From Microbacterium endophyticum (GTDB lineage Bacteria; Actinomycetota; Actinomycetes; Actinomycetales; Microbacteriaceae): a stretch of 64,000 nucleotides of DNA. The stretch's first letter is position 1. The number at the start of each line of letters is the position of its first letter. The stretch is taken from assembly GCF_011047135.1 (NCBI RefSeq), contig NZ_CP049255.1, positions 1 through 64,000 of the forward strand. Direction: 5' to 3'. The position numbers were made by a program, and so were the translations under genes. The notes below the pieces were generated by a model that saw nothing but the letters and a program-made list of their open reading frames with translations, had not been told where the DNA came from and did no database searches. Shown piece by piece: positions 5,953-8,043 of the stretch.

Positions 5953-6621
5953 GTGAATGTAGACCAGTCGGAAGCCGAGCGCGCCGCTGGAACCTCGACA
6001 CCAATTGCGTTCGTCAATATGACCGCGCTCGTCGAAAATGCGCGCCTCATCGTTGAGGAAGTCGGCACAGATCTGGTGTTAGATCTTCGCGCAAATGCTT
6101 GGGGCTTCGGGGCTGATCGCGTCGCGTCGGTACTTCGCGATGTCGGTCTGGAAGCATCTCGCTTCACGGGCGCCCCGCATCCGGGCTTGACCGAGCGTTT
6201 GTACGGACTCGGCGACGAGCGTTCAGCCTCGGTGCTGAGCCTGCACGGCACTGTGTTATCGGTCAAGCCTTTACTACGCGGCGAGGGCGTGTCGTATGGA
6301 TTTCGACACCGAGCATCAACCGACACAAACGTCGCACTTGTGACTGGCGGGTATGCACAAGGAATAGTGCGTGCATTGGGTAACCAGGCTTACGTCACTG
6401 TCGCGGGCGCGCGGTGCCCGATCGTGGGCCGCGTAGCAATGGATGTGAGTGTGATTGACGTAAGCCACCATCCGGTTCGGCGTGGGGACACTGTGGTGTA
6501 CCTGGGCGACAGTGCATTAGGAGAAACATCGCTGCGCGATTGGTGCGCCATGACGGGGCTGAATGTGCGCGAGATCGTCGCCGGTATTTTGACGCGCGCT
6601 CGAACGGAGCATCATTCGTGA
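5953..6621 (+). CDS. Split alanine racemase, subunit A: C-terminal domain with degenerate barrel stub
   Basis: A 222-residue protein matching alanine racemase at both ends but lacking most of the PLP barrel. Residues 18-66 resemble the first barrel strands, but the PLP-lysine motif (usually KANAYGHG) reads RANAWGFG, with Arg46 in place of Lys and Trp50 in place of Tyr. About 150 barrel residues are missing. Residues 91-222 form the C-terminal beta domain: GEGVSYG with Tyr115 (equivalent to catalytic Tyr265 of Geobacillus Alr), GGYAQG, and VGRVAMD with Met163-Asp164. It cannot hold PLP itself but carries the residues Alr donates to the partner subunit. The GTG start is placed by a TAGTCT box seven bases upstream. 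The stop overlaps subunit B by GTGA. Confidence 0.82.
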   Translation: MNVDQSEAERAAGTSTPIAFVNMTALVENARLIVEEVGTDLVLDLRANAWGFGADRVASVLRDVGLEASRFTGAPHPGLTERLYGLGDERSASVLSLHGTVLSVKPLLRGEGVSYGFRHRASTDTNVALVTGGYAQGIVRALGNQAYVTVAGARCPIVGRVAMDVSVIDVSHHPVRRGDTVVYLGDSALGETSLRDWCAMTGLNVREIVAGILTRARTEHHS

Positions 6622-7643
6622 CGACACACCTGGACGTTGACCTCGGCACGCTTGCCGCGAATATAGCGAGCATCCGACGTCGGATAGATGGCACCGAGCT
6701 CATGCTCGTTGTCAAAGACGACGCCTATGCGCACGGAATCGTTTCCGTTGTCTCTCGGGCATTTGCTGAAGGCGTGCGCTGGTTCGGAGCCTTCGACATC
6801 GCTTCTGCGGCACGGGTTCGCCACGCTGTAGGCGATCGCGCACGTATTTTTGTTTGGATCGCAGTCACGCGGGAAGAAATCGAGGAAGCACTCAGTCTCG
6901 ATCTCGACTTCGGCGTCGGTGACGCTGCGATGCTCGAGGATGTCGCGGCTGCCGCGCTCGATCAACGTGCTCGAGTCCATCTGAAAATCGACACCGGACT
7001 GCACCGCAACGGTATCCGCCCAGAGAGCTGGCGACGGACGGCTGCGCGGGCACACGACCTCGAGATGGCGGGCGCTATTGAGGTTGTTGGTATATGGAGT
7101 CACATTGCCGAAGCATCGGATGACGAGGATGACGAGGCGCGCGAATGTTTTGACCGCGCTGTCAGGGAGGCGCGAGCAGTCGGGCTGAATCCCTCGATCT
7201 TGCATTTGGCCGCAAGCGCCGCATCGTGGGAGCGTCCTGAGTTCCGCTACGATTTGGCTCGAGTCGGAGCATATTGCTACGGCATCCGCCCGGCCGGCGG
7301 TCCGTCAGAGGCCGAGCTCTCCATTTCGCCGGTCGGGTCCCTTTGGGCCGATATCACGGCGGTCGGCGCGGACGTTACGTTGGGGATTGGGTCGCTCCAC
7401 GGACTACCATCGACGCTCGCCGGCAAATGTGAAATTCAGACAAGAGACGGATGGCGGCGTCTCACCCGCATCGGTGACACCGAATCGTGGGCGGAAAGCT
7501 GGCCCTCGGCGCGTGTGGGAGAAGAAGTCAAGATCTACGGCACCGACGCCATGTCGGCGACCGATCTTGCAGAGAAAATAGAAACGATCGGCGAGGAGAT
7601 TGCATTGCGCGTCTCGCCGATCGTTCCTCGAAGGTATGTGTAG
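6618..7643 (+). CDS. Split alanine racemase, subunit B: intact PLP barrel, degenerate C-terminal domain
   Basis: A 341-residue alanine-racemase homologue of nearly full length. The barrel is complete: PLP lysine Lys33 in VVKDDAYAHG, Tyr37, HLKIDTGLHRNG with Lys123 and Arg130, His162 in WSHIAEA, Ser200 in LHLAASAAS, and Arg215 in LARVGAYCYG, which contacts the PLP ring nitrogen. In the C-terminal domain the GxSxxYG motif is replaced by GIGSLHG and the Met-Asp motif is gone, so the acid/base tyrosine normally supplied to the other subunit is missing. Subunit A, overlapping by GTGA just upstream, supplies exactly these. The pair is most simply read as an obligate heterodimer with one active site; the amino acid racemised is unknown. 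It ends three bases from the convergent DUF7455 gene. Confidence 0.84.
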   Translation: MTTHLDVDLGTLAANIASIRRRIDGTELMLVVKDDAYAHGIVSVVSRAFAEGVRWFGAFDIASAARVRHAVGDRARIFVWIAVTREEIEEALSLDLDFGVGDAAMLEDVAAAALDQRARVHLKIDTGLHRNGIRPESWRRTAARAHDLEMAGAIEVVGIWSHIAEASDDEDDEARECFDRAVREARAVGLNPSILHLAASAASWERPEFRYDLARVGAYCYGIRPAGGPSEAELSISPVGSLWADITAVGADVTLGIGSLHGLPSTLAGKCEIQTRDGWRRLTRIGDTESWAESWPSARVGEEVKIYGTDAMSATDLAEKIETIGEEIALRVSPIVPRRYV

Positions 7644-7646
7644 GAG

Positions 7647-7865
7647 CTAAACCGCTTCGGTAAGACGCGATGTCTCGTCGTGCCACGACGTGGCAATGCT
7701 CCGAAGCTTCTCTTCATATTTGCGGCCATGGTGCGCGCAAAAGAGAAGCTCGCTGCCGTTGACCTCGGCGGCGATATAAGCCTGGGCGCCACAAGAGTCG
7801 CAACGGTCGGCGGCGGTCAGGCGGTACTCCATCGTGGGCTCTGCGGTACTCGTGAGCGTTGTCAT
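7647..7865 (-). CDS. Small zinc-ribbon-like protein, DUF7455 family
   Basis: A 72-residue protein with an N-terminal DRCDSCGAQAY motif and a later FCAHHGRKY motif. Together these give a likely Cys4/His metal site. Actinobacteria carry such a protein next to primary sigma factor or topoisomerase genes, as here beside parE; its function is not known to me. The ATG at 7865 has a strong GAGGAGG eight bases upstream and is preferred to longer in-frame starts. A TTGGTA / TGTATG pair with 18-base spacing upstream may be its promoter. Confidence 0.8.
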   Translation of the reverse strand: MTTLTSTAEPTMEYRLTAADRCDSCGAQAYIAAEVNGSELLFCAHHGRKYEEKLRSIATSWHDETSRLTEAV

Positions 7866-8043
7866 GTCGGTGCCTCCTCTGTCATACAGCCTGTGACTGC
7901 GGGTGTTACCAATACAACCACGCGTTTGTTTCTGGTATGCCGCCGTGTGGTGACATTTCGCTGAGCGCGTACGCCGCGGCGTGACAGGCATGCGTCAGCT
8001 GTGAAACGCGCAGAGTGTCTGCGGCCCGCGTGTCGTCAACGCT

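Follow-up and report, generated by a model that had tools for sequence, protein, structure and literature searches.

A pair of overlapping, complementary alanine racemase-like genes in Microbacterium, predicted to encode a heterodimeric racemase

Two overlapping genes that each resemble an alanine racemase (Alr) gene, each lacking what the other retains, raise the question of whether they encode a single enzyme built from two proteins, how such a pair could have arisen and what it makes. The pair lies in the window, i.e., the whole 64-kb stretch of DNA analyzed here, which forms the start of a 2.9-Mb genome consisting of a single contig; the best-matching named relative is Microbacterium halimionae. 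Gene A (5953..6621, forward strand; 222 aa) runs from a GTG start at 5953 to a TGA stop at 6621 and gene B (6618..7643, forward strand; 341 aa) from a GTG start at 6618 to a TAG stop at 7643; according to the ORF translations, the start of B and the stop of A share a 4-nt GTGA overlap (6618..6621, forward strand), by which the two genes are translationally coupled. These are the reading frames that had been described in an earlier, sequence-only reading of this DNA, which took them for an alanine racemase divided into two genes.

Gene A encodes an Alr-like C-terminal domain with Tyr115 (codon 6295..6297, forward strand; Tyr265 in the usual Alr numbering) and Met163-Asp164, together with a barrel remnant in which Arg46 (codon 6088..6090, forward strand) occupies the position of the PLP lysine. 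Gene B encodes a PLP barrel with the PLP lysine Lys33 (codon 6714..6716, forward strand; Lys39 in the usual numbering), Tyr37, Lys123, Arg130, His162, Ser200 and Arg215, and a degenerate C-terminal domain that has neither the Tyr loop nor the Met. Comparison with the genome's own full-length Alr, which is encoded elsewhere (C1:802121-802774, reverse strand), bore out the residues that the sequence-only reading had assigned to A and to B, as well as its estimate of about 150 missing barrel residues in A (40 of 190 barrel columns are kept).

Pfam searches matched A to PF00842 (E 1.4e-29, residues 94-217) and not to PF01168, while B matched PF01168 over its full length (E 2.5e-50) and showed a C-terminal PF00842 tail below threshold (21.1 vs. 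25 bits). Both proteins also scored below the 168-bit cut-off of TIGR00492, the NCBIfam alr equivalog (98.6 bits for A and 132.4 bits for B). AlphaFold models predict an Alr-like single-chain fold for each protein; the model of A (pLDDT 86.6, pTM 0.84) has M. tuberculosis Alr (8ahw; TM 0.80 by query) as its best PDB match, and the model of B (pLDDT 93.5, pTM 0.89) has S. coelicolor Alr (5fag; TM 0.94 by query).

The distribution of active-site residues was assessed in 122 split A-B pairs with B proteins less than 95% identical to each other, representing Microbacterium and 23 other genus codes (24 genera) of the Microbacteriaceae, whose members live in soil and on plants; four loci with contig ends or broken frames (L060, L072, L121 and L170) as well as exact duplicates were excluded. 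As a search for the Tyr motif proved to be a poor control (it recovered 75 of the 76 A proteins and none of the 76 B proteins, yet just 19 of 29 canonical Alr), residue calls were based on alignment instead. In A, Tyr265 and Met312 (usual Alr numbering) were found in 122/122 pairs each, and position 313 was Asp in 112 and Asn in 10. The position of the PLP lysine in A was occupied by Arg in 57 pairs, Ala in 28, Ser in 9, Thr in 7, Asp in 6, Gly in 4, Glu in 2, and Leu and Pro in 1 each, with a gap in 7 and Lys in 0/122. Conservation of Arg46, which the sequence-only reading had put forward for checking, was therefore rejected, and the constant trait of A is the absence of Lys. In B, Lys39, Tyr43, Arg136, His166, Ser204 and Arg219 were each present in 122/122 pairs, and Lys129 in 121 (Gln in one). 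The region around Tyr265 was reduced in B to between 0 and 5 filled columns out of 17, with Tyr in none of the 122 pairs; Met was found at position 312 in 0/122, while the residue aligned at position 313 was Asp in 40. The loss of Tyr and Met from B that had been noted in the window thus extends to all pairs.

The number of barrel columns kept in A ranged from 3 to 183 of 190 (at least 130 in 14 pairs, 30 to 100 in 103 and fewer than 30 in 5). As erosion of the A barrel varies this widely, the rule that applies across the pairs is loss of the lysine site in A and of the tyrosine loop in B; the decay of the A barrel appears to have followed the loss of the lysine site. Mean pairwise identity of the barrel was 0.305 for A, 0.469 for B and 0.53 for Alr, and that of the C-domain was 0.428, 0.381 and 0.634, respectively, although the contrast between the C-domains was blurred when only same-genome sets were used (0.395 for A, 0.398 for B and 0.626 for Alr). 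These values show that the presumably dead half-sites, i.e., the barrel of A and the C-domain of B, are the less conserved ones. The lower conservation of the C-domain of A as compared to that of Alr, on the other hand, counts against a heterodimer.

Of 366 Microbacterium genomes, 294 gave a match to B (E up to 1e-55), as did 39 records of a named genome collection; B was absent from 23 genomes representing other families, whose best matches were weaker than 1e-42 and resembled ordinary Alr. A search of 398 genomes yielded 109 that passed E 1e-80, a number not used as a count of B since this threshold also admits other Alr; inspection covered the fetched loci. In 120 of the 122 pairs, A immediately precedes B (118 within 30 nt and 2 within 150 nt, as measured from the stop of A to the first aligned residue of B), the remaining two being single ORFs, and the overlap was exactly 4 nt in 59 of 66 loci with starts chosen by rule. 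Co-occurrence, which the sequence-only reading had named as a check, was assessed in 52 Microbacterium genomes, of which 26 carry B and the other 26 were drawn from the 72 that lack it. Both genes were present in 26 of these genomes, neither in 25, and broken pieces of both in one (locus L121 of G123, a 68%-complete assembly); none of the 52 carried one gene without the other, a finding that, according to the sequence-only reading, would have refuted the heterodimer. Every one of the 26 genomes with B was matched by the A profile at an E value of 7e-71 or lower, and in the 26 genomes without B, G123 excepted, this profile matched ordinary Alr only.

Natural A-B fusions without a stop between the two parts occur in two genomes of one genus (frames of 766 codons at L109, 3925-6222, and 729 codons at L151, 2960-5146, both on the reverse strand). 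The best Pfam match to the C-domain falls in the A half of these fusions and the best match to the barrel or N-domain in the B half; only here, and in neither A nor B of the window, are a complete barrel and a complete C-terminal domain joined in one chain. Distances between A proteins and between B proteins were correlated across 18 genomes after removal of the intact Alr distances (partial r = 0.54, P = 0.0002), and so were A and Alr distances with B removed (0.47, P = 0.0006), but not B and Alr distances with A removed (0.03, P = 0.39); genetic linkage confounds the A-B correlation and can yield part of the signal. Overall, complementarity in 122/122 pairs, co-occurrence in 52/52 genomes, translational coupling and two fusions argue for the obligate heterodimer proposed by the sequence-only reading. 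As the parts missing from either protein are present in its partner, a pair of the two would have one complete site, and the residue losses in both argue against homodimers; A and B thus very probably form a heterodimer with one active site.

How the pair arose was addressed with FastTree trees of a thinned set (76 split pairs, L170 included, four tandem pairs and 29 Alr), in which support values are local supports rather than bootstraps. In the C-domain tree, all 76 A sequences fell into one clade and all 76 B sequences into another (0.97 for B). Four genomes, which belong to three further genus codes, carry tandem pairs of intact racemase genes (L140, L147, L156 and L171); both copies keep Lys39, Tyr43, Arg136, His166, Ser204, Arg219, Tyr265 and Met312, and no third Alr homologue was found in these four genomes at E up to 1e-20. 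Lys129, which is usually carbamylated, is replaced in all 8 tandem copies. The first tandem copy was sister to A in both trees (0.97 for the barrel and 0.87 for the C-domain). The second grouped with B in the barrel tree, where B and the four second copies formed one clade (0.96), and with A in the C-domain tree (0.92), a mosaic that could reflect either the ancestral state of an intact pair or an event of gene conversion.

By these trees, A and B appear to be tandem duplicates with complementary losses and not one racemase gene cut in two. In this respect the earlier description of a divided racemase is corrected; its account of the complementarity of the genes stands. A frameshift or split of one gene, which the sequence-only reading had already dismissed because of the gene order, was rejected, as the C-domain precedes the barrel, a separate full-length Alr is present and A and B are paralogues in the trees; tandem duplication followed by reciprocal loss accounts for the order that a frameshift cannot explain.

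We thus propose that an alr-like gene was duplicated in tandem and that each copy then lost the opposite half-site. A and B would pair as the two chains of an Alr dimer do, PLP would be bound to Lys33 of B, and the alpha-proton of the substrate would be taken and given from two faces by Lys33 of B and Tyr115 of A, while Met163-Asp164 of A would complete the pocket. The second site, formed by the eroded barrel of A and the stripped C-domain of B, would be dead. With less weight, we suggest that the substrate would be L-Orn (or L-Dab) and that the D-form would be ligated to the D-Glu branch by neighboring enzymes.

A different possibility is that B is active alone, as a homodimer using another catalytic acid or as some other one-base enzyme, with A in a regulatory or stabilizing role. 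B does retain a full PLP barrel and a C-domain that is folded though degenerate, and activation of a weak enzyme by a catalytically dead partner is described, in the available portions of PMC3663545 and PMC5201418, for trypanosomatid prozyme and deoxyhypusine synthase. However, A keeps exactly Tyr and Met-Asp/Asn in 122/122 pairs with the rest of its site lost, which is more than pure regulation would need, and the natural A-B fusions also speak against a B that acts by itself; we regard this possibility as very unlikely. That A and B represent a decaying pseudogene pair or a sequencing artefact might be suggested by the absence of most of a domain from A, but B occurs in 294 of the 366 Microbacterium genomes and the residue pattern is invariant in 24 genera, which refutes this explanation and makes its probability negligible.

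What the heterodimer would make was approached through its gene neighborhood, which lies between rpoD and parE. Divergent from A is an ATP-grasp gene (PF14397; 4889..5908, reverse strand, start inferred), which adjoins A in Microbacterium relatives and shows 91% identity to its M. halimionae counterpart (77% for B). A CofE-like amide ligase gene (PF01996; 4171..4869, forward strand) scored 26.6 bits as compared to a cut-off of 180.65 for true CofE. On the other side, a small DUF7455 protein is encoded between B and a gyrase B-like gene (7647-7991, reverse strand). Among 99 split loci with flanks, CofE-like and/or ATP-grasp genes were present in 56, MurT plus GatD in 38, a mixture in 2 and neither module in 3, one of which is cut by a contig end. 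In one genome (L144 of G610), two A-B pairs are clustered with two ATP-grasp genes. MurT was found in exactly 8 of the 52 Microbacterium genomes, namely the ones that have neither a CofE-like nor an ATP-grasp gene. The two enzyme pairs, which are unrelated, were thus mutually exclusive at this place in 52/52 genomes, so that one replaces the other; this suggests that the peptidoglycan amidotransferase MurT-GatD has been replaced non-homologously by the CofE-like and ATP-grasp proteins. Type B cross-bridges start from the alpha-carboxyl of D-Glu. This is the group in lipid II that MurT-GatD amidates, according to the available portions of PMC3266927 and others. The ATP-grasp protein of the window is likely to be a ligase of the same cell-wall module as A-B.

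CofE-like and ATP-grasp genes were also present in 24 of the 26 genomes without B and are therefore not specific to A-B; the idea that they are dedicated partners of A-B was weakened accordingly, the genomes without A-B having other ATP-grasp types. In five loci without A-B (L122, L123 and L128-L130), the CofE-like gene is accompanied either by one ATP-grasp gene with 54-60% identity or by two in tandem with 35-40%, which are perhaps ligases for L-lysine, and some genomes without A-B (L124-L127) have a further ATP-grasp gene, 67-71% identical to that of the window and far from the CofE-like gene. The links of A-B to MurT-GatD and CofE may in part reflect old synteny between rpoD and parE.

Residues near the B site bear on the substrate as well. 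The residue three positions after the PLP-site His of B (E165 in the window) is Glu or Asp in 76/76 B proteins as compared to Asn, Gly or Trp in 29/29 Alr, and 62 of 76 B proteins have Ala or Gly where Alr has Ile, Leu or Val; an acid and a smaller residue would fit a larger, basic side chain of the substrate. D34 and H129 of B, initially considered as a family-wide signature, were present in 67/67 proteins of the Microbacterium set and variable in other genera, and only the acid at E165 holds family-wide.

The occurrence of A-B was also compared with reported wall chemistry. Nine genomes with a Dps protein 91-100% identical to PDB 2yjj, which we take to be the Dps of M. arborescens, have no B and just an Alr-like match at 35-38%; as these nine represent one clade, they count as one event. 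The available portion of PMC10757982 reports L-Lys for M. arborescens and M. imperiale. A-B is present, among others, in the named records of M. testaceum, M. hydrothermale and M. proteolyticum; the same portion lists these three as the cluster IV species with D-Orn. It is also present in that of M. oxydans, a reference strain whose diamino acid is given there as identical to that of the strains of the D-Orn study. M. enclense, also reported there to have L-Lys, carries both A and B (L051) and is a counterexample to a D-diamino acid substrate. M. radiodurans, a member of the L-Lys clade, is reported in that source to have D-Orn; it may be among the nine genomes without B, which would count against a role in D-Orn formation. 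On the neighborhood, these few residues and the reported wall chemistry, we consider it fairly probable that A-B makes a D-diamino acid for the cell wall.

Two other substrates or uses have to be weighed against this assignment. A-B could be a second alanine racemase that provides a backup or regulated supply of D-Ala; it belongs to the same family as Alr, and in the four genomes with intact tandem pairs these pairs are the only two Alr homologues (E up to 1e-20). However, 24 of the 26 Microbacterium genomes that carry A-B have a separate Alr, identified by its C-domain (the two exceptions, G003 and G030, are fragmented), which indicates that the substrate of A-B is probably not alanine, and this role is further opposed by the acid and the smaller residue near the B site and by the absence of A-B from whole clades that must make D-Ala. 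We consider a second alanine racemase unlikely, and think the same of a D-amino acid destined for catabolism, signalling or a polymer made by the CofE-like/ATP-grasp pair instead of the wall. PF14397 is named for sugar-transfer loci and 6 of the 26 genomes with B have A-B without CofE-like and ATP-grasp genes, which would be compatible with such a use; those six genomes have MurT instead, though, with MurT-GatD beside A-B in the fetched loci, and the D-Glu that MurT-GatD amidates is that of peptidoglycan (PMC3266927 and others, in the portions available).

For the explanation as a whole, i.e., an obligate heterodimeric PLP racemase that arose from a tandem alr-like duplicate and makes the D-diamino acid of a type B wall, we put the probability at roughly 75%. 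The product would be D-ornithine in Microbacterium and another D-amino acid, such as D-diaminobutyrate, in other genera, and would enter the type B cross-bridge. We lean, with some reserve, towards the broadest form of this proposal, in which intact tandem pairs, pairs with a dead full-length barrel partner, pairs with a Tyr-donating C-domain partner and two A-B fusions would be coexisting stages, and A-B would be a family-wide obligate heterodimeric racemase that supplies type B peptidoglycan with its D-ornithine or D-diaminobutyrate.

The A-B system is real and widespread, and it is undescribed to the extent that the open-access literature was searched. The statement of the sequence-only reading that no characterized example was known agrees with a search of the open-access PMC literature by titles and starts of abstracts, in which no heterodimeric alanine racemase was recognized; the open-access PMC literature likewise yielded nothing that links a racemase to D-ornithine or diaminobutyric acid in this taxon and, in the papers searched, named no racemase for the D-diamino acid of type B peptidoglycan. 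To our knowledge, no other racemase of the Alr fold is an obligate heterodimer, and A-B, if our reading is correct, would be the first. It would also offer a natural series leading from a homodimer with shared sites to two mutually dependent genes, a candidate for a missing step, namely how type B peptidoglycan obtains its D-diamino acid, and, with the CofE-like and ATP-grasp proteins in place of MurT-GatD, candidate ligases. The novelty would be that of a variant of a known fold and reaction and not of new chemistry.

An active site composed from two chains is a known design of Alr (PF01168 plus PF00842; PDB 1xfc, 5fag and 1vfh), whose fold is common to A and B and whose key site residues are all present if A and B are combined. 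Alr, however, is the product of one gene and forms a homodimer with two sites, whereas the half-sites of A-B are located in two proteins, and the barrel of A is largely gone. Broad-spectrum, lysine, serine and histidine racemases (PDB 4beu, 4dza, 4ecl and 5zl6) share this fold and act on substrates other than alanine; unlike A-B they are single-gene enzymes according to the structure listings by which they were compared. MurT-GatD, which is found beside A-B in 38 of 99 split loci, is a partner module and not a relative. A parallel in assembly is provided by trypanosomatid prozyme and deoxyhypusine synthase, where, in the available portions of PMC3663545 and PMC5201418, an active heteromer consists of an impaired and a dead paralogue derived by duplication. 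A and B are likewise paralogues derived by duplication, and a partner without the catalytic residue was co-present in all 26 tested genomes with B. Folds and reactions are unrelated in the two cases, though, and in A-B the loss is reciprocal, with each subunit predicted to contribute part of one site.
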